A stretch of 61,121 nucleotides of DNA, taken from Alkalicoccus chagannorensis DSM 18086 (GTDB lineage: Bacteria; Bacillota; Bacilli; Bacillales; Salisediminibacteriaceae). The notes under the pieces were generated by a model, which was given only the letters and a program-made list of their open reading frames with translations, had not been told where the DNA came from and did no database searches. Numbering within the stretch: position 1 is the stretch's first letter; every line of letters starts with the position of its first letter. Below are positions 37,236 through 60,157 of this stretch, one piece after another. The stretch lies in the NCBI RefSeq assembly GCF_000429725.1, contig NZ_AUCK01000008.1:1-61121 (forward strand), written 5' to 3'. The position numbers and the translations under genes are program-made.

Positions 37236-37240
37236 GCGAG

Positions 37241-37276
37241 TGAGCCTGTTCTCCTCCGGGAGGACAGGCTTCTCTA
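37241..37276 (+). terminator. Terminator of sdhCAB
   Basis: AGCCTGTTCTCC pairs with GGAGGACAGGCT (one mismatch), followed by TCTCTAT. The U tract is weak. Confidence 0.6.
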
Positions 37277-37285
37277 TCATCAAGT

Positions 37286-37303
37286 AATGAATAGTCATTC
37301 ATT
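37286..37303. promoter_or_regulatory. FadR-type operator upstream of the thioesterase gene
   Basis: AATGAATAGTCATTCATT is a palindrome like those at 16711 and 20422. It lies 20 bases before the start codon of the thioesterase gene. A TATCAT box at 37275 may be the matching -10, but no good -35 is seen. Confidence 0.75.
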
Positions 37304-37323
37304 TTAGAGGAGGAGTCGATACA

Positions 37324-37764
37324 ATGGGAATGCCGGCCTACATACAGAACCCTGCCGAGTGGCAGGAAGGATTCACGTTTTTTGATCATGCACGCGTGCG
37401 CTTTTCAGAAACGGATGCGTTCGGTCACGTGAATAATACGGTTGCCTTTGTTTATTTTGAGCAGGCGAGAATCAACTACTTTCAATCCCTCGGCCTGATG
37501 CAGGACTGGATGGAAGGGGAGTCGATTATCGTGACCGGAGACCTGCAGTGTGACTATCACAGGCAGGTGACGTTTGGAGAAGCACTGACCATCGGAGTCA
37601 AGACAGCCTCTGTCGGCCGGACCTCCATCGACGTTCACTATATGGTCACGAATGAAAAGCAGGAGCTCTGCATGACGGGCAGAGGGCGGATTGTCCAGAT
37701 TCATAAACAGACAGGACAATCGCATCCCTGGTCCGATGCTGTCAGCGCGAAGCTGCAGGCTTAA
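37324..37764 (+). CDS. ysmA: 4-hydroxybenzoyl-CoA-type acyl-CoA thioesterase (YsmA)
   Basis: A 146-residue hotdog-fold enzyme that should hydrolyse acyl-CoA. The catalytic Asp is D31 in the signature FSETDAFGHVNNTV; the central helix runs FVYFEQARINYFQSLGL. Strong ribosome site GAGGAGG. In B. subtilis ysmA follows gerE after sdhB. Here a FadR-type operator lies directly upstream, which points to a role in fatty-acid turnover, for instance limiting acyl-CoA build-up when FadR is relieved. Confidence 0.88.
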   Translation: MGMPAYIQNPAEWQEGFTFFDHARVRFSETDAFGHVNNTVAFVYFEQARINYFQSLGLMQDWMEGESIIVTGDLQCDYHRQVTFGEALTIGVKTASVGRTSIDVHYMVTNEKQELCMTGRGRIVQIHKQTGQSHPWSDAVSAKLQA

Positions 37765-37779
37765 GCCGCTGTCATCTCC

Positions 37780-37808
37780 TTGCATCCTCCCGGGACTCAC
37801 TTTATGAT
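37780..37808 (+). promoter_or_regulatory. SigA promoter of glcT
   Basis: TTGCAT (37780-37785) and TATGAT (37803-37808) are 17 bases apart, just after ysmA. Confidence 0.7.
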
Positions 37809-37832
37809 AGGGAAGAACGGGAGGAGCGTATT

Positions 37833-38663
37833 ATGAACGACACATACACGGTGATGAAAGCAGTGAATAACAACGTTGTCATCTGTAAAAAGGAAGATGG
37901 GGGCGAAGCAGTCTTTATCGGCAAAGGAATCGGGTTCGGACGCAGGCAGGGACAAGTATTCGATTCAAGCAGCTACGATAAAGTGTATGCGCTCGTCAAT
38001 GAGCAGGAACGGGAGCAGTATTACCGCTTGACCCAGCAGGAACCGGAAGAGACGATGCTCATGATTCATGAAGCGCTGACGACGATTCATGAAGCGATTG
38101 GAAGACAGCTCAATGAACGGGTCCATTTCGCTTTGACCCAGCATCTCGTTCTGGCATTGCAGCGCACGCGGGACGAAACCGAGATTCAGAATCCGTTTCT
38201 CACAGAGACGAAATGGCTCTACTATGATACGTATGCCGTTGCAGAAGAAGTGGTGGATTTTATTTATCGCCGGACGGGCCTGCGCCTGCCGGATGCCGAA
38301 ATCGGGTTTATCACCCTCCATATTCAGAGTGCGGTCCGTCACCCCGACCGCCACGAACCGGATTTGACTACCCGGTGTGTTCACTATGCCGAAGAGAAGC
38401 TCGGCGTCACGTTTGACCGGCAGCATCCTGCTTTCCAGCAGCTCGTCCAGTACATCCGGATGCTCGCTGAAACGCCGGTTGCGCATCGAACGGAAGAGGT
38501 GGACCGGCAGATCGATTCGTTGTTGAAAGAATCTCATCCTTCATGCTATACTATTTCACGTAACATCATTCGTATGCTCGAAAAGGCAGGCGGTTCCAAA
38601 GCGGAAGCTAGAAGTTACAACCAGCTTGTGCTTCACCTTTTATCTGCCGCAGGAACGAACTGA
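37833..38663 (+). CDS. glcT: BglG/GlcT-family transcription antiterminator
   Basis: A 276-residue antiterminator: an RNA-binding CAT domain (1-55, with VNNNVVICKKEDGGEAVFIGKGIGFG), then two PTS regulatory domains, PRD1 (about 65-170) and PRD2 (about 175-276). PRD histidines that can be phosphorylated are visible in NERVHFALTQHLVLALQRT and in FITLHIQSA. It should bind a target RNA upstream of PTS genes and stop terminator formation when glucose is present. The first suitable target is just downstream, in front of ptsH. In B. subtilis glcT is followed by ptsG; ptsG is absent here. Confidence 0.92.
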   Translation: MNDTYTVMKAVNNNVVICKKEDGGEAVFIGKGIGFGRRQGQVFDSSSYDKVYALVNEQEREQYYRLTQQEPEETMLMIHEALTTIHEAIGRQLNERVHFALTQHLVLALQRTRDETEIQNPFLTETKWLYYDTYAVAEEVVDFIYRRTGLRLPDAEIGFITLHIQSAVRHPDRHEPDLTTRCVHYAEEKLGVTFDRQHPAFQQLVQYIRMLAETPVAHRTEEVDRQIDSLLKESHPSCYTISRNIIRMLEKAGGSKAEARSYNQLVLHLLSAAGTN

Positions 38664-38670
38664 ATATACA

Positions 38671-38760
38671 CATTACGTGTAACTGACACGATCAGGCATG
38701 AGTAATGCAGCAGGTTGGACCGGAGTCGTCTACCCTCTGTACTGCTCATGCTTTTTTTTG
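38671..38760 (+). promoter_or_regulatory. GlcT target RNA (RAT) overlapping a terminator, upstream of ptsH
   Basis: ACGTGTAACTGACACGATCA is close to the B. subtilis ptsG antiterminator (RAT). It runs straight into GCATGAGTAATGCAG (38696-38710), which pairs with CTGTACTGCTCATGC (38737-38751) to form a terminator with eight T residues. This is the classic mutually exclusive pair: GlcT binding prevents the terminator. It sits 8 bases after glcT, so read-through from glcT into ptsHI is controlled by GlcT itself. Confidence 0.85.
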
Positions 38761-38768
38761 TGTATAAC

Positions 38769-38797
38769 TTGCGCCTGGAAGCGTTCACTTGTATGAT
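38769..38797 (+). promoter_or_regulatory. Second promoter of ptsHI, downstream of the terminator
   Basis: TTGCGC (38769-38774) and TATGAT (38792-38797) are 17 bases apart. The spacer contains TGGAAGCGTTCACT, a weak cre-like sequence. It allows glucose-independent expression of ptsHI. Confidence 0.65.
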
Positions 38798-38878
38798 GAA
38801 AAACATATGAACGTGTTTCTCTGATTGTGAATTCGAATGATGAAAAAAGAAGCAAATCCATTAAAGGAGTGTTTGATC

Positions 38879-39142
38879 ATGGCAGAACAACAGTACAAAA
38901 TTACCGCAGAGACAGGAATCCACGCACGTCCGGCTACGCAGCTGGTCAACAAAGCGGGGCAGTTTGAATCAGAAGTAACGCTTGAATATAACGGGAAGTC
39001 CGTCAACCTGAAGTCCATCATGGGCGTCATGTCCCTCGGTGTCAGCCAGGGAGCGGAAGTAACCATCAAGGCGGAAGGTCCGGACGAACAGGAAGCGATC
39101 TCTGCGCTCGACGAAGTCATGAAGCAGGGGCTGTCTGAGTAA
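38879..39142 (+). CDS. ptsH: Phosphocarrier protein HPr
   Basis: An 87-residue HPr. H15 (in GIHARPA) takes phosphate from enzyme I and passes it to sugar-specific EIIA domains; S46 (in [11 protein letters not shown]) is the HPr-kinase site, and the P-Ser form is the co-repressor of CcpA. Both residues are at their exact standard positions. ATG at 38879 follows AAAGGAGTG; the ATG further upstream has no site. The stop codon overlaps ptsI by one base. Confidence 0.97.
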
Positions 39143-40863
39143 TGAGCAGAAAGCTCACAGGCATCGGGGCTTCGGCCGGGATTGCTATTGCGAAGGCTTT
39201 CCGCTACGAAGAACCCGATTTAACCGTGGAGAAAAAGACCGGCGTCGACGTGAAAAAGGAGCTGCAGTCTCTTGATGCAGCGCTGGAAAAGTCGCGCGCG
39301 GAGCTGGAGCAGATCAAAGAGAAGACGATGAACGACCTCGGAGAAGAGCATGCAGAGATCTTTTCCGCGCATCTGCTCGTGCTGAGTGATCCTGAATTCG
39401 TCGATGCGGTGAAACAGAAAGTACAGGACGATGAGATCAATGCCTCTTTCGCTCTGAATGAAAAAGCAGATGAATTCATCATGATCTTTGAGAGCATGGA
39501 TAATGCCTACATGAAAGAACGCGCGGCGGATATCCGGGATGTATCCAAACGTGTCCTCTCCCATCTGCTTGGGAAGCCGATTGTTTCACTGGCAGAGCTG
39601 GATGAGGAAGTTATCATCGTCGGGGAGGACCTGACCCCATCAGATACCGCGCAGCTGAATAAGACGTACGTGAAAGGCTTTGTGACGAACATCGGCGGCA
39701 GAACTTCCCATTCCGCTATTATGGCACGTTCGCTGGAGATCCCTGCCGTCGTCGGGACGAAAGAAGTAACCAGCAGCACCAAGCAGCACGGGATGGTGAT
39801 TGTTGATGGCATCGACGGCACCGTTATCATTAACCCGACGGAGGAAGAACTTCAGACCTACCGGCGTAAGCAGGAAGAGTTTGAAGAAAAGAAAGCAGAA
39901 TGGGCGAAGCTGAAAGACGAGCCCTCTGTCTCTGCCGATGGTCATCATGTGGAGCTTGCTGCGAATATCGGGACTCCTGAGGATCTCGACGGGGTGAAAG
40001 AAAACGGAGCCGAAGGTGTTGGTCTGTACCGCACCGAGTTTCTCTACATGGGACGAAACGAGCTTCCTACCGAAGAAGAACAGTTCAAAGCATATAAGGC
40101 GGTTGCTGAAGGCATGAACGGCCGTCCGGTCGTGATTCGCACGCTGGATATCGGGGGAGATAAGGAACTTCCTTACCTCGACCTTCCGAATGAGATGAAT
40201 CCTTTTCTCGGCTTCCGTGCCATCCGCCTCTGTCTGGAGATGGAAGACATGTTCCGGACGCAGCTGCGTGCCCTTCTTCGTGCCGGCGCCTTTGGCAACT
40301 TGAAAATCATGTTTCCGATGATCGCGACACTGGAAGAATTCCGACAGGCGAAGGCGCTTCTTGATGACGAGCGGGAGAAGCTGAAACAAGAAGGTACAGC
40401 TGCTGCAGAAGAGCTCGAAGTCGGCATCATGGTGGAGATCCCATCCACAGCCGTCATGGCACCGCAGTTTGCGGAAGAAGTCGATTTCTTCAGCATCGGC
40501 ACCAACGACCTGATTCAGTACACGATGGCAGCGGACCGGATGAACGAACGGGTCTCGTACCTGTATCAGCCGTACAGTCCTGCAATCCTGAATCTCGTGA
40601 AGATGGTGATTGATGCAGCACATGCGAAAGGCAAATGGGCCGGCATGTGCGGGGAAATGGCAGGCGATGAAACGGCGATTCCACTGCTGCTCGGCCTGGG
40701 ACTGGACGAGTTCAGTATGAGTGCGACATCCATCCTGCCGGCGCGTACACAGCTGCTCGGCCTCTCGAAAGAAGAGGCAGCTTCTGCAGCTGAAGAAGCG
40801 CTCCAGCTGCGAACGAGCACAGAAGTACAGGAGCTGGTCCAGGAACGTTTCATAAAAAAATAA
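39142..40863 (+). CDS. ptsI: Phosphoenolpyruvate-protein phosphotransferase (enzyme I)
   Basis: The 573-residue first enzyme of the sugar PTS, autophosphorylating with PEP and then phosphorylating HPr. The active histidine is H190 in [19 protein letters not shown]. The C-terminal PEP-binding barrel has [10 protein letters not shown] near 294, [19 protein letters not shown] near 450-468 and the catalytic Cys in GMCGEMAGD near 503. It is translationally coupled to ptsH (TAATG). It serves every PTS sugar, so the lack of a transporter gene here does not leave it without partners. Confidence 0.97.
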
Positions 40864-40878
40864 TCTATTTTCTCCACC

Positions 40879-40914
40879 ATCCGGAGGCGGTTCCCATGCT
40901 GTCTCCGGATTTTC
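40879..40914 (+). terminator. Terminator of ptsHI
   Basis: ATCCGGAG pairs with CTCCGGAT, followed by TTTTCC. Confidence 0.75.
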
Positions 40915-41042
40915 CTATAATGAGCCCCGGCCGCTGATGTGGAGCTGTTTTGTAACTTTTTTATGATGCTGTCGTCTATCATGCTGCAGGACAATGGATA
41001 GGGATATGATTGAAAATTCGCGCACTTTTTGTCAGTACAGCC

Positions 41043-41071
41043 TTGATATTCACATAAAAAAAGATGACAAT
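41043..41071 (+). promoter_or_regulatory. Possible promoter of the MarR gene
   Basis: TTGATA (41043-41048) and GACAAT (41066-41071) are 17 bases apart, about 35 bases before the ribosome site. Confidence 0.45.
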
Positions 41072-41108
41072 AGTAGTAATTGCTGAAGAATCGAAAGGGG
41101 AGTCTATC

Positions 41109-41588
41109 ATGGCTGAAAAGTCTGAAGTTGTAACAACGAATCCGGAGCAGGTGGCAGCTATTGAAAAATCGCTGCGGATGATTGCCGACATCATCAAGCA
41201 GAAAGGCCGTGAGATCTTAAACGAATTTCCGATTACGCCGCCGCAGTTTGTCGCCCTTCAATGGCTCCATGAGTACGGGGATATGACAATCGGGGAGCTG
41301 TCGAACAAAATGTACCTCGCCTGCAGTACGACGACAGACCTTATCGACCGCATGGAAAAGAACGAACTTGTGGAACGGGTAAAAGACACGAATGACCGGC
41401 GTGTCGTAAGGATTCAGCTGCTGGACAAAGGCAGGACGATCATCCAGGAAGTGATTCAGCAGCGTCAGGTGTACCTGCAGCATGTCCTGGATGATTTCTC
41501 CGGTGAGAACGTCGATTTCCTGGAGCAGAGCCTGAGCCAGCTGTTCGATGAAATGAAACGGGATGCGGAGACGTGGAAATCGTTTTAA
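41109..41588 (+). CDS. ysmB: MarR-family transcriptional regulator (YsmB)
   Basis: A 159-residue winged-helix regulator. The helix-turn-helix is in MTIGELSNKMYLACSTTTDLIDRMEKNELVERVKDTNDRRVVRI (about 60-104). It has a C-terminal dimer helix. In B. subtilis ysmB lies directly before racE, as here, and the two are likely co-transcribed. ATG at 41109 follows AAAGGGGAG; an ATG 15 codons upstream has no site. The target genes are unknown. Confidence 0.88.
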   Translation: MAEKSEVVTTNPEQVAAIEKSLRMIADIIKQKGREILNEFPITPPQFVALQWLHEYGDMTIGELSNKMYLACSTTTDLIDRMEKNELVERVKDTNDRRVVRIQLLDKGRTIIQEVIQQRQVYLQHVLDDFSGENVDFLEQSLSQLFDEMKRDAETWKSF

Positions 41589-41738
41589 GAGAAGCTTCAT
41601 ACCGGGACGTGGGACGTTCCCTTCCTGCCGCGGGCCATCGAGCGCAGATGCCCGCGGCGGTCTCCGCTGCCGGGGCCGATTCCGGCAGGGACATCGACCG
41701 ACAGCAGAGACTGATCACCAAAGAGAAAGAGGATGCAT

Positions 41739-42575
41739 ATGCAGGGCGAAGACAAAGCAAGAAGACCGATTGGCGTCATTGATTCCGGGGTGGGCGGACT
41801 GACCGTTGCTTCCGAGCTGATCCGGCAGCTGCCGAAAGAAGAAATTTTATACGTAGGGGACACGAAACGTTGTCCGTACGGGCCCCGTCCCGAATCGGAA
41901 GTGCGTCAGTATACATGGGAAATGATCCATTACTTAATGAAAAAAGACATTAAAATGCTTGTCATCGCCTGCAATACAGCTACCGCGGTGGTGCTGGAGG
42001 AAGCGAAGATGATGCTTCCAATTCCTATCATCGGAGTTATCCATCCAGGTGCTGTGGCAGCGCTGAAGGCGACGAGGAATGAACATATCGGGGTGATCGG
42101 GACGGAAGGAACCATCTACAGCGGCGCCTACCATCGGGAGCTTACGGATATCAACAGCGACGTAAGGGTGGTAAGCCTTGCCTGTCCACCTTTCGTTCCG
42201 CTCGTGGAATCCGGCAGGACCGACTTCGCCGAAGCAGCGGACGTCGTTGAAGAGGTCCTGGCTCCGATGATGGCGTATGATATCGACTGCCTGATTCTCG
42301 GCTGTACGCATTATCCGATCCTCGCACCAGTCATCCGGAAAACGATGGGCGACAGCGTCAAGGTTATTTCTTCCGGCGAGGAAACGGCCCGGGAAGTCAG
42401 TTCACTGCTGTACTTTCAGGAAATGCTGTACAGCGGAGACCGCAGACCGAAGCACCGCTTCTTCACCACGGGAAGCGCCGAAGCTTTCAGCCTTACAGCG
42501 GATGAATGGCTGGAGAAAGAATCCCCTGTAGAACACGTGACACTTGAAACCCCCATCGCAGCAGGATACTTGTAA
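41739..42575 (+). CDS. racE: Glutamate racemase
   Basis: A 278-residue cofactor-independent racemase making D-glutamate for peptidoglycan and, in some bacilli, poly-gamma-glutamate. The two catalytic cysteines are C78 in VIACNTATA and C189 in LILGCTHYP; the N-terminal [13 protein letters not shown] carries the first Asp. I choose the ATG at 41739, 6 bases after GAGG; another ATG two codons upstream touches that site. B. subtilis has gerM between racE and rph; here a repeat copy fills that gap. Confidence 0.94.
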
Positions 42576-42623
42576 TCCGCTGCTATCCTTATCAGCACAT
42601 ACCATTCGCGTTTTTCGCGACGG

Positions 42624-42664
42624 AACCTCCTCTTTCCCCTTACCGGGAAGGAGGAGGTTTGTTT
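42624..42664 (+). terminator. Terminator of racE
   Basis: AACCTCCTCTTTCCC pairs with GGGAAGGAGGAGGTT (one G-U pair), followed by TGTTT. Confidence 0.85.
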
Positions 42665-42665
42665 A

Positions 42666-42795
42666 GAATATAGGAATGTAAAAGTTCTCATACAGTGTGA
42701 CGGCGGCTCCATGCGCTGCTCGGGAAGAAACAAAGCACGTTTTCTTCCCTCAAAAAGCTTGCAGCGCTTCCGCACGCCGTTCCGACCAAAAGCAG
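42666..42795. repeat. Full copy of the 145-bp repeat between racE and rph (copy D)
   Basis: Nearly identical to copies A and B from GGAATGTAAAAGTTCTCATA through GGGAAGAAACAAAGCACG, TTTTCTTCCCTCAAAAAGC and GCCGTTCCGACCAAAAG. It occupies the place of gerM in B. subtilis. The last repeat segment (GCGC/GCGC hairpin) is missing. Confidence 0.85.
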
Positions 42796-42855
42796 GAAAA
42801 GCAGCGGTGCGCTGTTACCTGGATGCTGCATTGCGGAATTCCCGCTGCAGGCCCG

Positions 42856-42884
42856 TTGAAAAAAACGAGCGCAGCACGTATGAT
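42856..42884 (+). promoter_or_regulatory. SigA promoter of rph-ysnA-ysnB
   Basis: TTGAAA (42856-42861) and TATGAT (42879-42884) are 17 bases apart, 54 bases before the rph start. Confidence 0.75.
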
Positions 42885-42937
42885 AGTAGAGGTAATAGAA
42901 CGTGAGAAGGATCGATAGATAAAAGGAGCGTGTCAGC

Positions 42938-43702
42938 ATGCGGACCAACGATCGTCCAGCATTAAAGAAACGGAATGTAGAAGTCATTCCTCATTATATT
43001 AAACATCCGGAAGGATCTGTGCTTATTTCCTTCGGCGATACGAAAGTCATTTGTTCTGCGAGTGTAGAAAACAAAGTACCTCCTTTCCTGCGCGGCAAAG
43101 GTACAGGCTGGATCACAGCGGAATACGCGATGCTCCCGAGAGCAACCGAACAGCGGAACATCCGGGAATCCTCGAAAGGGAAAGTAGCCGGAAGAACAAT
43201 GGAGATCCAGCGGCTGATTGGCCGGGCCCTCCGCTCCGTTGTCCAGCTCGATACGCTTGGAGAACGAACGATCTGGGTGGACTGTGATGTCATTCAAGCC
43301 GATGGAGGAACCAGGACGGCTGCGGTCACCGGCGCCTTTCTTGCTGTTGGTCTGGCGGTCGAAAAACTCATGAAAAACGGAGCATTAAAAGAGAACCCGC
43401 TCACTGGCTATCTGGCTGCGATTTCCGTCGGTATGAACAGCAGCGGCGAAACGCTGCTGGACCTCGATTACAAGGAAGACTCGCAGGCGGATGTCGACAT
43501 GAACGTCGTCATGAAAAGCGGCGGCCGCCTTGTGGAAGTACAGGGTACCGGGGAAGAAGCGACCTTCAACCGCCACCAGATGAACGACATGCTTGATGCA
43601 GCGGAGTCCGGCATCGACGAACTGTTTGAGCTGCAGAAGGAACTTCTCGGTGACTTCGGCTCAACCATTCCAGCGGAAAAGGAGGAGACACATGCCACGT
43701 GA
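42938..43702 (+). CDS. rph: Ribonuclease PH
   Basis: A 254-residue phosphorolytic 3'-5' exoribonuclease that trims the 3' ends of tRNAs. The RNase PH signature [19 protein letters not shown] lies at about 115-133, with the phosphate-binding Arg and Thr; [10 protein letters not shown] (about 66-75) is the other typical block, and [20 protein letters not shown] is near 191-210. The C-terminal tail is normal. Start after AAAGGAGCGTG. It overlaps the ITPase gene by 11 bases. Confidence 0.95.
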
Positions 43703-44806: not shown

Positions 44807-44831
44807 CAGCGGCCCCGCAATTGTTTATATT
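44803..44831 (+). promoter_or_regulatory. SigA promoter of tRNA-Arg
   Basis: TTGACA (44803-44808) and TATATT (44826-44831) are 17 bases apart. The -35 box overlaps the ysnB stop codon. Confidence 0.8.
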
Positions 44832-44874
44832 GGATATTGTCGCTGACAGCAGAACAGCCTGCTGATCCGTGCAC

Positions 44875-48012: not shown

Positions 48013-49281
48013 ATGTTCAAGTTCAATGAAGAAAAAGGCCAGCTGAAGTGTTCGTTCTGCGGAAAAACACAGGATCAGGTACGTAAGCTGGTGGCAGGTC
48101 CCGGTGTCTATATCTGTGACGAATGCATCGAACTCTGCACCGAAATTGTCGAAGAGGAACTGGGCTCGGAAGAAGAAGTAGAACTGGAAGATATTCCGAA
48201 GCCGCAGGAAATCCGTGACATTCTCAATGAATATGTTATCGGTCAGGATAAAGCGAAGAAAACGCTGTCTGTAGCCGTTTATAACCATTATAAGCGTATT
48301 AATGCCTCTTCCGGCAAAAACGATGAGGTCGAGCTCGCGAAGAGTAACATCTGCCTGATCGGTCCTACCGGAAGCGGGAAAACCCTGCTTGCTCAGACGC
48401 TGGCAAGAATTCTGAACGTCCCATTCGCGATCGCCGATGCTACGTCGCTGACGGAAGCCGGCTATGTCGGTGAAGACGTGGAAAACATTCTGCTCAAGCT
48501 GATTCAGGCAGCAGATTACGACGTAGAAAAAGCGGAACGCGGCATCATTTACATCGATGAGATTGATAAGGTTGCACGTAAGTCAGAGAACCCATCGATC
48601 ACCCGGGACGTATCCGGTGAAGGGGTACAGCAGGCACTGCTGAAAATTCTCGAAGGAACAACGGCAAGTGTACCGCCGCAGGGTGGACGTAAGCATCCTC
48701 ATCAGGAATTCATCCAGATTGATACAACCAACGTGCTGTTTGTTATTGGTGGTGCGTTTGACGGAATCGATCAGATCATCAAGCGCCGTCTAGGTAAGAA
48801 AGTCATCGGTTTCGGTTCAGAACAGGAGAATGCAGGTCTGGAAGAAGACCAGTACCTGTCTAAAATTCTACCGGAAGACCTTCTCCGATACGGCCTGATC
48901 CCTGAGTTTATCGGGCGTATGCCGGTCATCGCTTCCCTGGAGTACCTGGATGAAGAAGCGCTTGTGGAAATTCTGACTGCACCGAAAAACGCACTCGTCA
49001 AGCAGTACAAGAAGCTTCTGGAGCTCGATGATGTGGAGCTGGAATTTACAGACGAAGCGCTCCGGGAAGTCGCACGGCTGGCGATCGAACGAAAAACGGG
49101 AGCACGTGGACTCCGATCCATCATCGAATCACTCATGCTCGATGTGATGTACGATCTTCCGTCGAGAGATGATATCGTGAAATGTGTCATCACGGACGCA
49201 ACCGTTCGTGACAGCAAAGCACCGACACTCATCGATGAAGATGGCGCGGAGATTCCTCAGGAGCCGAAAGAAAGCGCATAA
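48013..49281 (+). CDS. clpX: ATP-dependent Clp protease ATP-binding subunit ClpX
   Basis: A 422-residue AAA+ unfoldase that feeds tagged proteins to ClpP. The N-terminal zinc-binding domain has C13, C16, C35 and C38. Walker A GPTGSGKT is at about 117-124, the pore loop GYVGEDVEN near 150, Walker [10 protein letters not shown] near 180, sensor motifs and the ClpP-docking loop (IGF segment, KKVIGFG near 268) follow. The acidic linker [14 protein letters not shown] (48-62) is typical. B. subtilis has lonB between clpX and lonA; only terminators are found here. Confidence 0.96.
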
Positions 49282-49297
49282 ACCAAATGCAGATCAG

Positions 49298-49361
49298 AGT
49301 GCACCACCGGCGCGGATATCGTTCCTTCCAGGAGCGCCGCGCCGAACGGTGCACTTTTTTT
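49298..49361 (+). terminator. Strong terminator of clpX
   Basis: AGTGCACC and a second GGCGCGG block pair with CCGCGCC and GGTGCACT, followed by seven T residues. Another hairpin (CGCCGGAGGG / CTCCGGCG, 49377-49408) without a T tract lies before lonA. Confidence 0.92.
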
Positions 49362-49462
49362 GTCCTGACCAGAAAACGCCGGAGGGAAAAGAAACTTTTC
49401 CTCCGGCGGCTGTCAGGGTATAGAACGGTAAGGAACGTAACGAGATAACGGAGGTGCCGGTG

Positions 49463-51790
49463 ATGACAAAGAGTAAAGAGCAGACCATGCCGCTTCTGCC
49501 GCTGCGGGGGCTCCTGGTCTATCCGACTATGGTGCTTCATCTGGATGTCGGCCGAAAGAAGTCGGTCAGTGGTCTGGAACAGGCCATGGTCGAAGACAAT
49601 CTCATTTTTCTGCTGACACAGAAAGAAGTGGGCACAGAAGAGCCGGATACACAGGATTTATATACGGTTGGAACGACAGCGAAAGTAAAACAGATGCTGA
49701 AACTGCCGAACGGAACGATTCGAGTCCTCGTAGAAGGACTGGATCGAGGACGGGTGCAGTCGCTGGAAGAGAAAGATGAGTATACTGCTGTTCATATCAA
49801 AACGATCGACGAACGGCAGGAAGCATCCGTGCAGGAACAGGCGCTTATGCGAAACGTGCTCGAGCAGTTTGAGCAGTACACTCAAATTTCCAAAAAAATC
49901 ACACAGGAAACGTTCGCGTCCGTGTCGGACATCGTCGAACCCGGCCGTCTGGCAGACATTATTGCTTCGCACCTGCCGCTTAAAATCGTGCAGAAGCAGG
50001 AAGTGCTGGAGACGCTCGATCTGGAAGAACGTCTCAAGCTGATGCTCCGCATTCTCTCGAACGAACGGGAAGTGCTCGGACTGGAGAAAAAGATTGGGCA
50101 GCGCGTGAAAAAATCGATGGAGAAAACCCAGAAGGAATACTATCTTCGTGAACAAATGAAGGCGATCCAAAAAGAACTGGGCGAACGGGAAGGCAAAGAG
50201 AGTGAATCCGAAGAGCTCCGCGAAAAAATTGAGGATTCCGCGATGCCTGATTCGGTCGAAGAGAAAGCACTGAAGGAACTGAAGCGCTATGAGCGTATGC
50301 CGGCGAACGCTGCAGAAAGCTCTGTCATTCGAAACTACATCGAGTGGTTGACGCAGATTCCATGGACAACAAGCACAGAAGACGTTCTCGATATCAAACG
50401 GTCCGAGAAAATTCTGGATGAAGATCATTACGGGCTGGAAAAAGTGAAAGAGCGGGTGCTGGAATATCTCGCGGTCCAGCAGCTGACAGAAAAACTGAAA
50501 GGCCCTATACTCTGTTTATCCGGACCGCCCGGAGTCGGGAAGACGTCACTCGCAAAGTCCATTTCCCGCTCCCTTGGACGCCATTTCGTCAGGATCTCCC
50601 TCGGGGGTGTCCGTGACGAGGCGGAAATCCGCGGACACCGCCGAACGTATGTCGGCGCCATGCCGGGAAGAATCATTCAGGGTATGAAAAAAGCAGAATC
50701 CACGAATCCGGTCTTCCTGCTGGATGAAATCGATAAAATGGCAAACGATTTCCGCGGCGATCCATCCGCTGCCCTGCTGGAGGTGCTGGATCCCGAGCAG
50801 AACCATACGTTCAGTGATCACTTCATCGAGGAACCGTATGATCTGTCCCAGGTTATGTTTGTCACTACAGCAAATAATATCGGAGCGATCCCGCCGGCGT
50901 TGAAAGACCGCATGGAGGTCATCCACATCCCGGGATATACCGAGGTGGAAAAGGTGGAAATCGCCAAAGGGTACCTTCTTCCGAAGCAGGTGGAAGACCA
51001 TGGACTGTCCAAAAACTCGCTGCAGGTAAGAGATGAAGCGTTAATTCACCTCATCCGCCATTACACGAGGGAAGCCGGGGTCCGTAACCTGGAACGCGAG
51101 CTGGCATCTGTCTGCCGGAAAGCAGCGAAATCGATCGTATCCGGAGAGAAGAAGCGGGTTGTCGTCACCGCAAAAACGCTGGAAGACATGCTCGGCAGCA
51201 AACGATTCAGACACGGCAAAGCGGAACTGGAAAACCAGATCGGTGCTGCAACTGGACTTGCCTATACCGCAGCAGGCGGCGACACGTTGAATATCGAAGT
51301 GGCGCTTGCCCCCGGAGAAGGGAAGCTGACGCTCACCGGGAAGCTCGGTGATGTCATGAAAGAATCTGCCCAGGCGGCCTTCAGCTATATCCGGACGAAA
51401 GCGGACGAATTGAACGTGGATGCCGATTTCACTTCCAAATATGATATTCACATTCATGTTCCTGAAGGAGCGACGCCGAAAGACGGCCCTTCCGCAGGGA
51501 TTACGATGGCAACGGCTCTTATATCGGCACTGACGAACCAGCCGGTGCGGAAAGAAGTCGGCATGACCGGCGAAATTACGCTCCGGGGACGAGTGCTGCC
51601 GATCGGCGGCCTGAAAGAAAAATCAATGAGCGCACACCGCGCCGGCTTAACGCACATTATTATTCCTAAAGATAATGAGAAGGATCTGGAAGATGTACCG
51701 GACAGCGTCCGCAGGGAACTGACTTTCATCCCGGTCTCTCATCTGGATGAAGTGCTGGAGCATGCGCTTGCAGTGGAGGAAAAAATATGA
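49463..51790 (+). CDS. lonA: ATP-dependent protease La (LonA)
   Basis: A 775-residue Lon protease that degrades misfolded and some regulatory proteins. The N-terminal substrate-binding LAN domain spans about 10-205, followed by a coiled coil rich in Lys/Glu. The AAA+ domain has Walker [10 protein letters not shown] near 353 and Walker [11 protein letters not shown] near 417. The C-terminal protease domain has the catalytic Ser in [13 protein letters not shown] (near 677) and Lys in [14 protein letters not shown] (near 720). ATG at 49463 is 8 bases after GGAGG; a GTG three codons upstream lies within it. It overlaps ysxC by 4 bases. Confidence 0.96.
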
Positions 51791-52700: not shown

Positions 52701-52799
52701 GTTTTTGTTTTTTCTTTTCAAAGAGAATCATAGGTCCGCCATTTGAAGATCGTTTGAGCATTCCTGAGCCTAATCAGCCTAACATGTGAATGAGAACCT

Positions 52800-53285
52800 T
52801 TATTTTCTGCTGATGAACAGCAGGTACATCCCGACAAGCACGAAGAGCACCGGCCAGTAGGCCATCACCGGATCTGGTATGATGCGGAATGCCGGGGCAA
52901 GTTCCGACTGGAATAAAGCAGCTCCGCTCACAGCCATCAGCACGATGCCTGCGAGCAGTCCATCACGGCGCTGCACCCGGTATTTGGTCAGAAAGGCAGC
53001 GCCGATCACAAGAGTAAAGTAAGGCCACTGGTAGGACCAGAGTCCGAGGGTATGTACCCCGTGAAACAATATACCGAGGCCGGTCAGCAGCGTGCCGGTA
53101 AACATTTTCTGGTCATCTTTGTTGGAAAAGCCCTGCCACATAAAAATGAACCCGATGCCCGCAAAGATGGACGGCCATGTTACAATGATATCTGCATAGG
53201 GTATAAGGATGTTATACTGTTCTGTGATAAAGTAGACACCGATGACAAAAAGCACCGCGCCCGGAAGCGCATATCCGGATTTCAT
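52800..53285 (-). CDS. Small membrane protein, LiaF/DUF5668-like transmembrane region (YsxD position)
   Basis: A 161-residue protein with six hydrophobic helices at about 5-25, 30-48, 62-80, 88-105, 115-133 and 141-158. The repeated pattern of a short helix pair with WPS-FAGIGFIFMWQG resembles the LiaI/LiaF-like membrane domain. It has the position and size of B. subtilis ysxD between ysxC and hemA. Function unknown. The start three codons into the frame is preferred because AAAGGA touches the first ATG. It is divergent from hemA. Confidence 0.75.
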   Translation of the reverse strand: MKSGYALPGAVLFVIGVYFITEQYNILIPYADIIVTWPSIFAGIGFIFMWQGFSNKDDQKMFTGTLLTGLGILFHGVHTLGLWSYQWPYFTLVIGAAFLTKYRVQRRDGLLAGIVLMAVSGAALFQSELAPAFRIIPDPVMAYWPVLFVLVGMYLLFISRK

Positions 53286-53343
53286 ACATATCATTCCTTT
53301 CCGTATCGGTCACAATTCTTTCAAAAAAGCGTCGGCAGATCAT

Positions 53344-53372
53344 GTGACGACCTTATTTAAAAGTGTTATAAT
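53344..53372 (+). promoter_or_regulatory. SigA promoter of the heme operon
   Basis: GTGACG (53344-53349) and TATAAT (53367-53372) are 17 bases apart. The leader to the hemA start is about 85 bases. Confidence 0.7.
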
Positions 53373-53463
53373 CTATAAAGATGGTTAAGAAAGCAGTACT
53401 TCTATGAGTATAACAGAGTAGACAAAATAAATGGATGTCGATTCAGGGGGGTGGAACCGCAGC

Positions 53464-54858
53464 ATGCATGTACTAGTAACCAGTTTGAATTATAAATCAA
53501 CGCCTGTAGAAATACGAGAAAAATTCACATTTCAGGATGATCTGACACCAGCGCTGGAGCAGCTGCGGCAGTCGAAAAGCATTCTGGAGTGTGTCATTGT
53601 ATCCACATGCAATAGAACAGAACTCTACGTTGTCGCGGATCAGGTGCATACCGGCCGTTACTATACGAAGCTTTTCCTGCAGGAATGGTTTGAAGAACCG
53701 AAAGAGAACTTCAGTCATCATCTTCAAATCAGAGAAGATGAACACGCGATCGAACATCTTTTCCGGGTAGCCAGCGGACTTGATTCCATGATTCTCGGTG
53801 AAACACAGATTCTTGGGCAGATCCGCCAGAGCTTTGATACAGCAAGAGAGGCCGGAACGACCGGTACCGTATTCAATCATTTATTCAAGCAGGCGGTAAC
53901 AACGGCGAAACGAGCGCACTCGGAGACGAAAATCGGCGAAAATGCCGTCTCTGTCAGCTACGCGGCTGTGGAACTCGGACGCCGTATTTTCGACGGCTTT
54001 GATGATAAAAAAGTCCTCGTGATGGGCGCCGGCAAAATGAGCGAACTGACGGCGAAGCACCTTTCCTCCAGCGGGGTTACCGACATTACGGTCATGAACC
54101 GGACGAAAGAAAAAGCACAAGAGCTGGCCCAGCGCTTCACCGGGAGAGCAGAGGGGATGGACCGCATGAACGAATCCCTTCAGTCGACAGATATTCTGAT
54201 CAGCTCCACCGGCTCAAACGATTATGTGATCCGGAAGAACGAAGTGAAGGACCTGCTGAAAAAACGGCGCGGACGTCCGCTGTTCCTTGTTGATATCGCG
54301 GTTCCCCGTGATCTCGATCCAGAGCTTGCAGAACTCGATAACGTCTATCTCTATGACATTGACGATCTGCAGGGCATCGTGAACGCAAATCTGGAGGAAC
54401 GAAAAGAAGAAGCGGAGAAAATCGAGCTGATGATCGAAGAAGAGCTTGTTGCGTTCAGTCACTGGCTCGATACGCTCGGAGTTGTGCCGGTGATTACAGC
54501 GCTTCGCTCTAAAGCTTCGACGGTGCAGGAGCAGACGATGGAGAGCCTCGAGAGAAAGCTTTCCAGCCTGTCCGAACGGGAGAAGAAAGTGATCCGCAAG
54601 CATATGAAGAGCATCATCAATCAAATGCTGCGTGATCCAATAACAGCACTCAAAGAAGTGCCGCAGGAAGATAATGCAGACGAACTGCTGCAGTATATGA
54701 CGAAAGTATTCGCTCTGGAAGATCATATTGAAGAGGGGGAATCCCCGCTCACACATGATATCCGTATCAACAAGCAGGAGAGAGAATGGAGCATTCAGGA
54801 GCGCAGAACCAGACTGGCTGAAAAGAAAGAAGCCCTCGTCCGGACCTTCCTCTCATGA
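53464..54858 (+). CDS. hemA: Glutamyl-tRNA reductase
   Basis: Reduces Glu-tRNA to glutamate-1-semialdehyde, the first step of C5 tetrapyrrole synthesis. 464 residues. The catalytic Cys is C49 in STCNRTELY; the glutamyl/tRNA region carries GLDSMILGETQILGQIR near 107-123; the NADPH Rossmann domain has VLVMGAGKMSELTAKHL near 186; the C-terminal helical dimerisation domain is long and charged. ATG at 53464 follows GGGGGGTGG. It overlaps hemX by 4 bases. It is the control point of the pathway, usually through heme-dependent protein stability. Confidence 0.95.
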   Translation: MHVLVTSLNYKSTPVEIREKFTFQDDLTPALEQLRQSKSILECVIVSTCNRTELYVVADQVHTGRYYTKLFLQEWFEEPKENFSHHLQIREDEHAIEHLFRVASGLDSMILGETQILGQIRQSFDTAREAGTTGTVFNHLFKQAVTTAKRAHSETKIGENAVSVSYAAVELGRRIFDGFDDKKVLVMGAGKMSELTAKHLSSSGVTDITVMNRTKEKAQELAQRFTGRAEGMDRMNESLQSTDILISSTGSNDYVIRKNEVKDLLKKRRGRPLFLVDIAVPRDLDPELAELDNVYLYDIDDLQGIVNANLEERKEEAEKIELMIEEELVAFSHWLDTLGVVPVITALRSKASTVQEQTMESLERKLSSLSEREKKVIRKHMKSIINQMLRDPITALKEVPQEDNADELLQYMTKVFALEDHIEEGESPLTHDIRINKQEREWSIQERRTRLAEKKEALVRTFLS

Positions 54859-55667
54859 GTGTCCTGTACTTTTTTCTCCTCGTCAGCTACTCCCTGAGTG
54901 TCCTCGGGTACTTCGTTGATTTTATGCAGCCGAACCAGAAGGTCAATCGTATGGCCTTCTGGTTGCTTTCTATTGTCTGGATTGTGCAGCTCTTTCTCTT
55001 TATTTATCGATTTGTAACCTTGGAGCGTCTGCCTATCATGACAGCGTTCGAAGGTATGTTTGTCTATGTGTGGATTTTAGTATCCATCTCGCTGATCCTG
55101 AACGCGCGCGTACGCATGAACATATTCATGCTTCTGGTCAACACAATCGGCTTTATCCTGCTCTCGATCAGCCTGATGATGCCTGCCGAAGAAGTGTCCA
55201 GCCGACTGGCCGACGTGCTGATTACGGAATTTCTCGTCGTTCACGTAGGACTGCTGATGCTGTCTTATGGGGCGTTTACGATCTCTTTCGTCTTCGCTCT
55301 CCTCTACGTGATTCACCATAAGCTGTTGAAGAAAAAAGTGTGGGGGCGCTGGATGGAGAAATTCGGCTCCCTCTCGAGCCTCGAACGCTATTCCTACTAT
55401 GCGGTCCTGATGGGCACACCGCTGCTGTTCACCGGCCTGATTCTCGGGATGGTCTGGGCTGCGATGACGACGGGCGGCGTTCCGTGGTTTGATTTGAAGG
55501 TGCTCAGCTCCTTTCTTGTTCTGCTCGTTTACGGTGCCTATCTCGTCCAGTACCGGGTGGCCGGCATGAGAGGTTACAGCGTATCGCTTTTAAATACGGC
55601 TGCCTTCCTGCTGCTGCTGATCAACTATTTCCTTTCCAGCGAATTCTCCGATTTCCACATCTGGTAA
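54855..55667 (+). CDS. hemX: HemX, CcsA-family membrane protein
   Basis: A 270-residue integral membrane protein with eight hydrophobic helices. It belongs to the cytochrome c assembly (CcsA/ResC) superfamily. In B. subtilis HemX lowers the steady-state level of HemA. The family WxWD heme motif is not seen in full; the region GMVWAAMTTGGVPWFDLKVL (about 197-216) takes its place. It is translationally coupled to hemA (ATGA) and followed by a 68-base gap before hemC. Confidence 0.9.
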   Translation: MSVLYFFLLVSYSLSVLGYFVDFMQPNQKVNRMAFWLLSIVWIVQLFLFIYRFVTLERLPIMTAFEGMFVYVWILVSISLILNARVRMNIFMLLVNTIGFILLSISLMMPAEEVSSRLADVLITEFLVVHVGLLMLSYGAFTISFVFALLYVIHHKLLKKKVWGRWMEKFGSLSSLERYSYYAVLMGTPLLFTGLILGMVWAAMTTGGVPWFDLKVLSSFLVLLVYGAYLVQYRVAGMRGYSVSLLNTAAFLLLLINYFLSSEFSDFHIW

Positions 55668-55735
55668 GGGGCACCAGCAGGCGTGTCATGTTACAATAGT
55701 GGGCGGAAGCAAGAGGAACTATCAAGGAGGTTACT

Positions 55736-56686
55736 ATGCGGAATATTGTCATCGGCAGCCGGCGCAGCAACCTGGCTATGACCCAGACACGATGGGTCAT
55801 TGAACAGCTGGAAGCGCTGGATCTGCCGTTTACGTTTGAAATCAAAGAAATTGTAACAAAAGGAGATAAAATCCTCGATGTGACGCTGTCCAAAGTCGGA
55901 GGGAAAGGTCTCTTCGTCAAAGAGATTGAGCAGGCGATGTTCGATAAAGAAATCGATATGGCTGTACACAGCTTGAAAGACCTGCCCTCGGAAATAGCAG
56001 ACGGACTGACGGTCGGCGCGGTTCCCGAGCGGGAAGATCCACGGGATGCGTTTATCTCCAATACGGGGGAAAAACTTGATGAGCTGCCTGCAGGAGCCGT
56101 CGTTGGAACGAGCAGTCTGCGCCGAGCCGCACAGGTACTCATTCAGCGTCCGGATCTGAAGATTCAGTGGATCCGCGGAAACATTGAAACGCGACTGCGG
56201 AAATGCCGGGAAGAAGGATATGATGCCATCATTCTCGCGGCGTCCGGCTTGAAACGTGTCGGATGGGATCCTTCGATTGTGTCGGAGTTTCTTGATCCGG
56301 TTTCCTGCCTGCCGGCTGTCGGCCAGGGCGCTCTCGGAATCGAGTGCAGAGAGGATGATACGGAACTGCTGGAGCTTCTCGCAGAGATCGAAGATCGGAC
56401 TACATCCCGTACGACGAAAGCGGAACGGGCCTTTCTGCACGCGGTAGAAGGCGGTTGTTCCGTGCCGATAGCAGGGCATGCGGTTCTGGAAGAAGATGAT
56501 CAGGTGACGCTGACCGCGCTTGTAGCATCGCCGGACGGCAAGCAGGTATTTAAAGAAACGCGGACCGGCCACGATCCGGAAAAGATCGGGCGTGAAGCAG
56601 CTGAAAAAATGCTGCAGCAGGGTGCGAAAGAAGTACTGGATCAGGTGAAAGAGGACCTGGAGAAGCAGGAGCCATGGAATCTCTAA
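55736..56686 (+). CDS. hemC: Porphobilinogen deaminase (hydroxymethylbilane synthase)
   Basis: Condenses four porphobilinogens into hydroxymethylbilane on a dipyrromethane cofactor. 316 residues. The cofactor-holding cysteine is in [13 protein letters not shown] near residue 241. Substrate arginines are in [11 protein letters not shown] (7-17), [10 protein letters not shown] (about 126-135) and [10 protein letters not shown] (about 144-153); the catalytic Asp is in VHSLKDLP near 80-87. AAGGAGG precedes the ATG. It overlaps hemD by 13 bases. Confidence 0.96.
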
Positions 56687-57366
56687 TCAATACCCGGGCA
56701 GTCCATCAGCAGGAGAGCCTCCGCCGCTGTATTGAAGCAGCTGGATTTGAAAGCGTGGATGTTCCTGTGACGAGGACGGTCTTCTTCAAGCCGGAGAAAC
56801 CGTTACCGGATGCGGACGCACTGATTCTTTTTACAAGCGTCAACGCGGTAAAGGCGTTCTCCTCGATGACAGAGAGCAGGCATTGGGATACTGCCTGTGT
56901 CGGGGCCAAAACAGCCGCCGCGGCTTCTACCGCTGGCTTCCGTGTGCTGTTCACACCGGAAGAGTACCGTGCAGGGCCGTTTGCATCGGCCGTGTCGGCT
57001 GCAGTCCCACGTCGTCGACGGCTTTTTTATCCGAAAAGCCGCATCGCCGGTCCGGTGCTCGAAAACGAGCTCGCCCGCGCCGGCTTTCAGGTGGATAGTG
57101 CCGAGCTGTACGACACCGTTGCTGAAACGAGCAGCCGGAGGGCACTGACTGCGTATGCACAGACAGCTGCAGGCATTTGTCTCATGAGTCCATCCGCTGT
57201 CCTCGCTTGTTTTGAAATGATGCCGTCGCCGCCGGCACAGCTTGATTTTCTCTGTATCGGGCCTGTCACCGCAGAAGCACTGGCCCGCTATACAGGGCGA
57301 ACACCATTTGTTCCTTCAACGTATACCATGGAAGCAATGATTGACCAATATGTACAAAGCAGGTGA
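56674..57366 (+). CDS. hemD: Uroporphyrinogen-III synthase
   Basis: Closes and rearranges hydroxymethylbilane to uroporphyrinogen III. 230 residues, somewhat shorter than the B. subtilis protein. The family diverges fast; typical features remain: an N-terminal NTRAVHQQ block, [13 protein letters not shown] near 48-60, a C-terminal half with [15 protein letters not shown], and the [24 protein letters not shown] segment. Its start lies inside hemC and its stop is 4 bases from the hemB start, so the operon is tightly packed. Confidence 0.9.
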
Positions 57367-57370
57367 TGAT

Positions 57371-58348
57371 GTGTCTTTATCGTTTGATCGGCACCGCCGT
57401 CTTCGGACGACGCCATCGATGAGAAGGATGGTGCGGGAAACAAAACTGCACAAGGAAGATTTTATCTACCCGATTTTCGTCATGGATGGTACCGATATTC
57501 AAAATCCGGTCGCCTCCATGCCGGGAGTCTATCAGTGGTCGCTGGACCGTGTGGACGAAGAAGTACAGGATGCTGTGGATAAAGGGATCGAGTCGCTGAT
57601 TCTGTTCGGCGTGCCTGCCTCCAAAGACGCTGTCGGGTCGAGTGCCTACGACGAAAACGGGATCGTTCAGCGGGCACTCAGGCAGATCAAAAGCAATCAT
57701 CCGCAGCTGAATCTGATTGCCGATACGTGCCTCTGTCAGTTTACGGATCACGGCCACTGTGGTGTCGTGGAGAACGGGGAAATCAAGAACGATGAGTCGC
57801 TGGATCTCCTCGTCCAGACGGCTGTTTCCCAGGCGGAAGCCGGCGCCGATATCATCGCTCCGTCCAATATGATGGATGGATTCACAGCCGCGATCAGACA
57901 GGGGCTTGATGATGCAGGCTATGTGCATGTTCCTGTCATGAGCTACTCCGTCAAATATGCATCCGCTTTTTACGGCCCCTTCCGTGATGCGGCTCATTCC
58001 TCGCCGCAGTCCGGCGATCGGAAAACGTATCAGATGGACCCGGCGAACCGTCTCGAAGCACTTCGGGAAGCGGAGTCGGACGAAGCAGAAGGCGCAGACT
58101 TTTTCATCGTCAAACCGGCACTGTCGTACCTGGATATTATCCGGGATGTGCGCGACCGGCATCACAAGCCCGTGGTGGCCTACAACGTCAGCGGGGAATA
58201 CTCCATGATCAAGGCCGCGTCTGCGCAGGGATGGATTGATGAGCAGGCAGTCGTGATGGAGAAATTGACCAGCATGAAGCGGGCAGGAGCGGATCTGATT
58301 CTGACCTACTTCGCAAAAGACGCCGCCGTCTGGCTCGACGAAGCATAA
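57371..58348 (+). CDS. hemB: Delta-aminolevulinic acid dehydratase (porphobilinogen synthase)
   Basis: Joins two aminolevulinates to porphobilinogen. 325 residues with the GTG start at 57371, which gives the family N-terminus [20 protein letters not shown] and follows AGGTGAT. An ATG 10 codons upstream lies inside hemD. The Cys-rich zinc site [14 protein letters not shown] (about 118-131) marks the zinc-dependent type. Catalytic lysines are in [14 protein letters not shown] (near 195) and [10 protein letters not shown] or [10 protein letters not shown] (near 248). Confidence 0.95.
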
Positions 58349-58370
58349 AAACGCGTATAGAGGTGATTCG

Positions 58371-59669
58371 ATGAAATGGGAGAATTCAACAGCAGCATTT
58401 GAGGAAGCGAAAGACGTCATGGTCGGCGGTGTAAACAGTCCGGTCCGTGCGTTTAACGCGGTCGGCAGAGACCCGATCTTTTTTGACGAAGGCAAAGGGG
58501 CACGAATCAAAGACATAGATGGGAACGAATACCTGGACTATGTTCTTTCCTGGGGACCGCTCATTCATGGTCACGCAGATGATCACATTGTCGAGACTCT
58601 GCAGAGACTGACGGCGAAGGGCACAAGTTTTGGTGCACCGCACGTCCTGGAGACGAAGCTGGCCGAATTGATTATCGAACGGGTGCCGTCGATCGAGACG
58701 GTCCGTATGGTGAGTTCCGGTACCGAGGCAACGATGAGTGCCCTGCGGGTAGCGAGAGGGTTTACCGGCCGGAACAAAATCCTCAAATTTGAAGGGTGCT
58801 ATCACGGTCACAACGACTCGCTCCTCATTAAAGCAGGATCCGGCGTAGCCACGCTTGGACTGCCGGATTCTCCGGGTGTACCCGAGTCGGTGGCGGCCAA
58901 TACCTTGACGGTTCCATATAATGACCTGGAAAGCTTAAAGCTGGCGTTTGAGAAGTTCGGCGATGATATTGCCGGAGTGATACTGGAACCAGTTACCGGC
59001 AATATGGGTGTCGTCCGGCCGGAAGAAGGGTTTCTGGAAGGCGTCCGGGAGCTGACGAACGAGCATGGCTCTCTGCTGATTTTTGATGAAGTCATGACTG
59101 GCTTCCGGGTCGGCTATCACTGCGCGCAGGGAGAACTGGGCGTGACGCCGGACTTGACGTGTCTCGGAAAAGTCGTCGGAGGCGGTATGCCTGCCGGTGC
59201 GTTCGGTGGACGCAGCGACATCATGGAGATGATTGCACCTGCGGGGGCCATCTATCACGCGGGGACGCTCTCCGGTAATCCACTCGCCATGGCAGCAGGA
59301 TTCGAAACAATCAACCGCCTGACGCCGGAGGATTACGATCGTTTCGACCGGATCGGGCGCCGCTTGACGGAAGGTCTTGCCGCAGCAGCGAAAAAGTATG
59401 ACATTCCGCACCACACCGTCAATGCAGGATCGATGGTCGGCTTCTTCTTTACGAATGAATATGTTCGTGATTTTGCTACGGCGAAGACTTCGGATCTGGA
59501 TATGTTCAGCCGGTTCTTCAATCTCATGCTGGAACAGGGGATTTCGCTCCCGCCCGCTCAGTTTGAAGGCCTCTTCCTCTCCACGAAGCATACGGAAGAA
59601 GATATCGATGAAACGATCACTGCAGCAGAAAAAGCATTCGCACAGATCCAGCAGGAACAGCAGCAGTAG
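58371..59669 (+). CDS. hemL: Glutamate-1-semialdehyde 2,1-aminomutase
   Basis: A pyridoxal-phosphate enzyme that moves the amino group of glutamate-1-semialdehyde to give 5-aminolevulinate. 432 residues, normal. The signature [10 protein letters not shown] starts at residue 17; phosphate binding is in [15 protein letters not shown] (about 120-134); DEVMTGFR holds the Asp that pairs with the PLP ring; the Schiff-base lysine is near 266 in [17 protein letters not shown]. It ends with a Gln/Glu-rich tail. It is the last gene of the hem operon. In B. subtilis spoVID and ysxE follow; here they do not. Confidence 0.96.
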
Positions 59670-59782
59670 CCGGAAGCCGGAGACGTTAATGCCGCTTCTG
59701 CCTAAAGCCCAGTCCAGGCAGAGCAGAGCGGAGACGCTGTTGAATCCCGGACATCCGTCCACCTTCTGAACTATACAGCTCA

Positions 59783-60062
59783 GGCTGGGGCAGCATTGTT
59801 TTCCAGCACGAAAAGAACGCTTTCGATGATCCAAGTTGGATCGCCGAAAGCGTTTTGTTTGTCCATAACGATCACGAACCTGCCACGAGTGCAAACCCGA
59901 GTTTCTGTTTTACCTTGTCTTTGCCTCTCACCGGCATACTGGTGAAACGCAGACACGCTTGCAGAAATCGAACGACGGCTTCTACGCCGGTCTTGCGAAG
60001 ACCATAGACGGCTCCAGGCTGGCAGATCTATAGACGCTCGCGCAGAAAGGAGCGGCCCCAGC
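59783..60062 (-). mobile_element. 280-bp internally deleted IS1182-like remnant downstream of hemL
   Basis: Left end GGCTGGGGCAGC (59783) and right end GCGGCCCCAGC (60052-60062) are inverted. The minus strand encodes the transposase tail RFTSMPVRGKDKVKQKL near 59900-59950, as in the 9121 copy, with no catalytic part. It has shrunk to MITE size. The hairpin AACGCTTTCG / CGAAAGCGTTTTG (59816-59856) inside its left end lies 147 bases after hemL and should terminate the hem operon. Confidence 0.65.
59816..59860 (+). terminator. IS-derived hairpin terminating the hem operon
   Basis: AACGCTTTCGATGATCC pairs with GGATCGCCGAAAGCGTT, followed by TTGTTTGT. It is the same hairpin as those after pheT and lysC. 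Confidence 0.6.
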
Positions 60063-60066
60063 ACGA

Positions 60067-60150
60067 GGCTGCGGCTGCATGGCGCTTCGCGCTTCCGATC
60101 TGGAGCAGGAATGCGTGCGTTCTCATCAGGAAAGCGGACGGCGCTGGTGG
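60067..60150. repeat. Diverged partial copy of the 145-bp repeat (copy I)
   Basis: TGGCGCTTCGCGCTTCC resembles the closing hairpin of one unit and GGAATGCGTGCGTTCTCATC with GGACGGCGCTGG the start of the next, as at the junction of the tandem copies A and B. It lies between the IS remnant and the stop codon of the last gene. Confidence 0.45.
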
Positions 60151-60157
60151 TCAGCGG

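Follow-up and report, generated by a model that had tools for sequence, protein, structure and literature searches.

A retained Spo0A phosphorelay in Alkalicoccus genomes that apparently lack the spore-building genes

The window analysed here is the whole 61,121-nucleotide stretch of contig NZ_AUCK01000008.1 (positions 1 to 61,121, forward strand) of Alkalicoccus chagannorensis DSM 18086, and the subject is the set of sporulation genes gerE, gerM, lonB, spoVID-ysxE and sspI, whose slots lie in its conserved housekeeping block, together with the Spo0A phosphorelay of the genus. From the sequences compared, the genus of this salt-loving bacterium is apparently without spore-building genes, and the relay that it has kept under strong selection, which normally governs when a spore is made, is apparently now used for ordinary stationary-phase control.

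Sporulation-gene slots in the conserved block

The housekeeping order sdhB-ysmA, racE-rph, clpX-lonA, hemL and valS was present on the contig, extending past the window end, and none of gerE, gerM, lonB and spoVID-ysxE was found within the sdhB-to-valS order. The sequence-only reading of this DNA had reported these absences with the housekeeping neighbours kept, and measurement bore it out: three gaps of 88, 362 and 172 bp, and no spoVID or ysxE in the slot from hemL (the left neighbour of spoVID-ysxE in Bacillus subtilis) to valS. The features are as follows.

36471..37235, plus strand: sdhB, which stands to the left of the place of gerE in B. subtilis; read from sequence, tblastn anchor
37236..37323, no strand: sdhB-ysmA gap without gerE, 88 bp, with a FadR-like palindrome; gap measurement
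37324..37764, plus strand: ysmA-like acyl-CoA thioesterase; YbgC/FadM family match below the curated cut-off
41733..42575, plus strand: racE (glutamate racemase); over the curated cut-off
42576..42937, no strand: racE-rph gap without gerM, 362 bp, holding a repeat copy (42660-42794); gap measurement
42938..43702, plus strand: rph (RNase PH); over the curated cut-off
48013..49281, plus strand: clpX; read from sequence, anchor
49282..49453, no strand: clpX-lonA gap without lonB, 172 bp; gap measurement; sister genome G022 likewise without lonB
49454..51790, plus strand: lonA (endopeptidase La); over the curated cut-off
58371..59669, plus strand: hemL; read from sequence, anchor
59670..60157, no strand: start of the hemL-valS interval without spoVID-ysxE, with a repeat copy (59769-59884); set by anchors
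60158..61121, minus strand: 3' part of a 514-aa gene (contig 60158-61702); weak DUF5643 match below cut-off

For comparison with relatives, a family set of 35 genomes was used, comprising group g1 (eight genomes of Alkalicoccus, the window genome G000 among them), group g7 (three genomes: G031, G032 and G033) and 24 genomes of six other genera. Genomes with SpoIVA, SpoIIE and small acid-soluble spore protein (SASP) are called marker-positive and those without them marker-negative, the negatives being g1 plus g7 (n = 11). A calibration set of 80 named relatives was fetched via RNase PH, spore status not being part of these data, and gap lengths were scored against cut-offs of our own at measurable loci. 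The sdhB-ysmA gap was below 330 bp in 32 of 39 relatives, the clpX-lonA gap below 1300 bp in 24 of 34, and the racE-rph gap below 900 bp in 9 of 74, leaving room for gerM in 65; L017 and L018, from the window's own genus, are inside all three short-gap counts.

Since the sdhB-ysmA gap is just 128 bp in G008, a genome positive for SpoIVA, SpoIIE and SASP, the short gap at the gerE position is uninformative in this family; G008 also has GerM (Germane domain over cut-off) and a LonB-like open reading frame (ORF). Because lonA stands directly after clpX, with no lonB between, in the marker-positive sister of g1 (G022), the loss of lonB in the lineage may predate that of sporulation. With the G008 GerM as tblastn query, relatives were found in 68 of the 80 named loci, and no match was found in L017, L018 or the blocks of G000, G001, G002, G007, G032 and G033, the search covering loci only; the 40 kb of G022 searched contained no racE-rph. 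Both SpoVID and YsxE lie between hemL and valS in the marker-positive G023, over their NCBIfam cut-offs, and a SpoVID query matched G022 only within a 67-residue LysM-side stretch and found nothing in the six marker-negative blocks named above. The informative gaps are those of gerM and spoVID-ysxE. Synteny alone was rejected as proof of asporogeny, since gerE and lonB are missing from their positions in many relatives, as well as in G008 (gerE) and G022 (lonB), which have sporulation genes. The earlier argument from the number of losses within a single block, four or five being too many for chance, is weaker than stated because B. subtilis was its sole yardstick and two of its four gaps are also empty in relatives with sporulation genes.

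As to gap contents, the palindrome between sdhB and ysmA (presumably FadR-like), the repeat copy in the gerM slot and one terminator-like site (plus strand, 49334) between clpX and lonA agree with the sequence-only reading. The repeat in the gerM slot is one copy of a dispersed element of about 80-135 bp (window 3014-3239, 9558-9692 and 42660-42794). The supposed insertion sequence (IS) remnant after hemL is one of three copies of a second dispersed repeat (9115-9217, 28055-28170 and 59769-59884), with no IS evidence seen. The absence of sspI near ysgA was likewise borne out by eye, in that no such ORF was noticed between ysgA (4344-5099) and pheS (5634), the SspI family not having been searched genome-wide; within that stretch, at about 5110-5420, lies what looks by eye like a T-box leader before pheS, without an Rfam report at the gathering threshold.

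Elsewhere in the block, the minus-strand 514-aa gene in the spoVID-ysxE slot has a Cys/His-rich N terminus and, by eye, look-alikes in the same slot of G001 and G007. A GlcT-like antiterminator (below the curated cut-off) and ptsH and ptsI (by eye) lie between ysmA and racE (37833-40863), an interval that differs from the B. subtilis order, and a gene for a LiaI/LiaF-like membrane protein lies between engB and hemA (52800-53294, minus strand).

Spore-building and phosphorelay genes across the family

Sigma factors were scanned in G000, using the 25 best NCBIfam families per protein. Of 12 sigma-70 factors (sigma-70 region 2 matches), seven reached specific cut-offs (SigA, SigB, FliA/SigD, SigH, SigI, SigW and SigX), five matched the general sigma-70 model only, and none was over the cut-off for SigE, SigF, SigG or SigK. 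A SigB-like factor (L005) was considered as a hidden SigF or SigG and discarded, since it passes the SigB cut-off but neither the SigF nor the SigG one. SpoIVA, SpoIIE over cut-off and SASP (PF00269) were each present in 24/24 genomes of the other six genera and in 0/11 of g1 and g7, where sub-cut-off SpoIIE matches were confined to model positions 541-762, the phosphatase end. An AbrB paralogue of SpoVT length (179 aa) was found in 4/4 marker-positive genomes examined vs 0/11 negatives, and the spoIIIA operon was missing between efp and accB in G000 (gene names read by eye). Directly before spo0A, recN stands in 11/11 negatives vs 0/19 positives, and most of the positives have another ORF in that place, taken to be spoIVB. 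In B. subtilis, spoIVB lies between recN and spo0A; the order recN before spo0A is shared here, but spoIVB is gone.

Together, these whole-genome searches strongly support the prediction of an asporogenous lineage. The sequence-only reading had concluded that such a lineage had lost its spore programme, and had proposed a genome-wide search for spo0A, sigE, sigF, sigG, sigK and spoIIE. The four sigma genes were found to be lacking in G000, and SpoIVA, full-length SpoIIE and SASP in 8/8 g1 genomes; spo0A was found, and the wording overstates the case, as the genus retains spo0A, spo0F and spo0B, and G000 also sigH.

Spo0A was present in 30/30 genomes searched, the G000 protein being over the TIGR02875 cut-off, and the Spo0B family in 35/35; SigH was identified in G000 by its specific NCBIfam cut-off. 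Spo0B adjoins obg and carries the RHD motif with the phosphorylated His in 26/26 genomes inspected, all 11 negatives among them, and the G000 protein has both Spo0B Pfam domains over cut-off, yet no NCBIfam model. Spo0F follows pyrG in 7/8 g1 genomes (the G005 locus ends at a contig edge) and 3/3 g7 genomes, with its acceptor Asp kept in an LLDMKIPG-type motif. Spo0A keeps its acceptor Asp region in 10/11 negatives; its DNA-binding helix is conserved in every one of the 11, apart from a change of Ala to Pro or Ser near B. subtilis position 209 in 8/8 g1 genomes. Two of 11 HisKA kinases in G000 have HEIRNPL/HEVRNPL motifs, a sporulation-kinase-like signature, and no receiver gene was seen in short flanks, where neighbours were incompletely covered. 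The system is like the B. subtilis phosphorelay in its Spo0F-Spo0B-Spo0A chain, in the neighbourhoods pyrG-spo0F-fba and spo0B-obg, in its phosphorylation motifs and in a 0A box at abrB; unlike B. subtilis, it comes with no sporulation sigma cascade, and both the 0A boxes and a sigmaH-type promoter are missing from the region before spo0A.

In G000 (L014 2153-17963), spo0A is immediately followed, as judged by eye, by prophage-like genes and a gene resembling that of a tyrosine recombinase, and G007 has a similar ORF downstream of its spo0A. The marker-positive G027 has a second Spo0A-type match (C3:21101-21412).

The spo0A promoter and the abrB box

The gene spo0A has vegetative and stationary promoters. 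The 220 bp upstream of spo0A were compared between 19 marker-positive and 11 marker-negative genomes. A pair of 0A boxes, one near -180 and the other near -50, was found in 19/19 positives vs 0/11 negatives, the latter being without any; a sigmaH-type promoter (pattern built on the sigmaH consensus) was matched in 15/19 vs 0/11, and it overlaps the -50 box. In 10/11 negatives an extended -10, TGNTATANT, precedes the spo0A start by 53-75 bp, and in 9/19 positives a like element stands about 200 bp before the start, upstream of both boxes. As the boxes and the sigmaH-type promoter are gone and the extended -10 now stands near the start, the most economical account is that spo0A lost the autoregulated segment separating it from its vegetative promoter, which was left.

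Spo0A~P represses abrB, and the abrB promoter keeps a predicted 0A box just after the -10 in 8/8 g1 and 3/3 g7 genomes (G033 has two abrB copies, one without the full flank). The box columns were invariant when eight abrB promoters were aligned, and abrB was the only place with the 0A-box consensus WTTTGTCGAAW common to all eight genomes compared, among sites examined in part for G000 (8/9), G033 (15/21) and G023 (6/17) and in full for G001, G002, G007, G022 and G032, the abrB loci of G022, G032, G033 and G023 having been added by hand.

Number of losses and competing explanations

A tree of Lon and PyrG from 20 genomes, which superseded a first Lon tree containing a LonB row from L019 on a long branch, placed the marker-positive G022 as sister to g1 (100/99) and g7 separately (99/98). 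A single clade of g1 and g7 was rejected (approximately unbiased test, p=0.00035) in a test that followed a Lon tree already displaying the g1/g7 split and was not blind; the deeper fork between g6, g7 and g1 plus G022 is unsettled in the Lon+PyrG tree. Because G022 is sister to g1 while g7 stands apart, we infer that the sporulation genes were lost at least twice, unless they were regained, with the same relay kept and the same promoter change.

That Spo0A, once a sporulation switch amplifying itself, was on two occasions reduced to a regulator of abrB is the reading that we consider likely. The balance tips slightly towards the further proposal that the same loss route was taken twice: the sporulation genes examined would have been lost, including spoIVB and the neighbouring Spo0A-stimulated promoter of spo0A, and the relay would have been preserved through selection on its abrB output. 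On this proposal abrB control may be the sporulation-independent core job of the relay, and the spo0A promoter switch may be needed for sporulation only. The ratio of nonsynonymous to synonymous substitution rates (dN/dS) points to purifying selection on Spo0A in the pairs tested: it was 0.020-0.036 for three pairs within g1, drawn from G004, G005 and G006, and 0.014-0.030 for three pairs of the marker-positive g6.

Several points weigh against the twofold reduction, the non-blind order of the topology test among them. The spo0A frame is broken in G031 (g7; L125), the sole such case among the 11 negatives, and G001 is without a recognisable extended -10 upstream of spo0A. Lon gave a lower dN/dS than Spo0A (0.008 and 0.017, one pair each), and the outgroup distance of Spo0A was 1.55x in g1 relative to G022 and 3.8x in g7 relative to g6 (controls, g1/g7: Lon 1.00/1.38, PyrG 1.07/1.17); the faster evolution of Spo0A fits a reduced role, but slow decay too. 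The WTTTGTCGAAW motif was not enriched over its reversed control in G000 (9/9 sites), G001 (17/44), G002 (19/43), G007 (14/18), G032 (21/25) or G033 (21/22), the corresponding counts in the compared positives being 33/19 (G022) and 17/39 (G023). A broad Spo0A regulon drawn from motif counts was rejected, the consensus not being above the reversed control in the asporogenous genomes.

That the kept phosphorelay is a decaying relic whose loss is still pending would accord with the faster evolution of Spo0A, Spo0F and Spo0B in g1 than in G022 (1.55x, 1.29x and 1.46x), with the broken frame in G031 and with the disappearance of the 0A boxes from the region before spo0A; we regard it as unlikely, since Spo0A and Spo0B are present in 11/11 negatives although SpoIVA, SpoIIE and SASP are gone, the dN/dS of Spo0A is low, and the abrB box and the phosphorylation His and Asp motifs are retained. 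A new main target of Spo0A such as pfkA is quite improbable. The gene has a 0A-like site upstream, just after accA, in 4/4 g1 genomes compared (L309, L318, L342 and L355), and none of the examined sites of G022, G032 and G033 falls there; but it is a lone predicted site beside the accA stop codon, the motif is not enriched, and the coding/non-coding flags are mixed for it as for the abrB site, because stop-to-stop frames were used. Loss of the entire spore programme with initiation included, as first worded, fits the absence of SpoIVA, SpoIIE and SASP and is very improbable, being refuted for initiation by the presence of Spo0A, Spo0F and Spo0B, and of SigH in G000. False absence through missing assembly pieces or relocated genes can practically be dismissed: G000 is a draft of 38 contigs, but it is 99.92% complete with flanking genes adjacent, and the single-contig G002, G031 and G033 have the same absences.

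Non-spore-forming Bacilli that encode Spo0A are known, namely Bacillus (now Salisediminibacterium) selenitireducens, Exiguobacterium and Macrococcus caseolyticus (PMC3533761, Table 5), a group described there as lacking sigE, sigF, sigG, sigK, spoIIE, spoIVA, spoIVB, the spoIIIA genes and SASPs. As in that group, Spo0A is kept here, with no SigE, SigF, SigG or SigK (G000) and no spoIIE, spoIVA or SASPs. Beyond it, the present case concerns a different genus, represented by eight genomes, with a sister that has sporulation genes, and is independent of g7; Spo0F, Spo0B and the abrB box are retained, and spo0A has lost its upstream 0A boxes. The passages of that paper on the group list missing genes and do not treat phosphorelay retention, the abrB box or loss of spo0A boxes. 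A genus-wide case with kept phosphorelay, abrB box and repeated 0A-box loss was not found in the open-licence literature, nor was an account of Alkalicoccus or Salisediminibacterium sporulation genes, that literature not having been exhaustively examined. The Spo0A-encoding asporogenous kind is thus already known, and the repeated rewiring upstream of spo0A looks new.

For the family, two independent natural losses would separate sporulation from the other functions of the phosphorelay, and would make testable which Spo0A targets are kept by selection without spores and whether autoregulation of spo0A serves sporulation only. The presence of spo0A is a poor indicator of sporulation, and so are missing genes judged by B. 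subtilis synteny alone.

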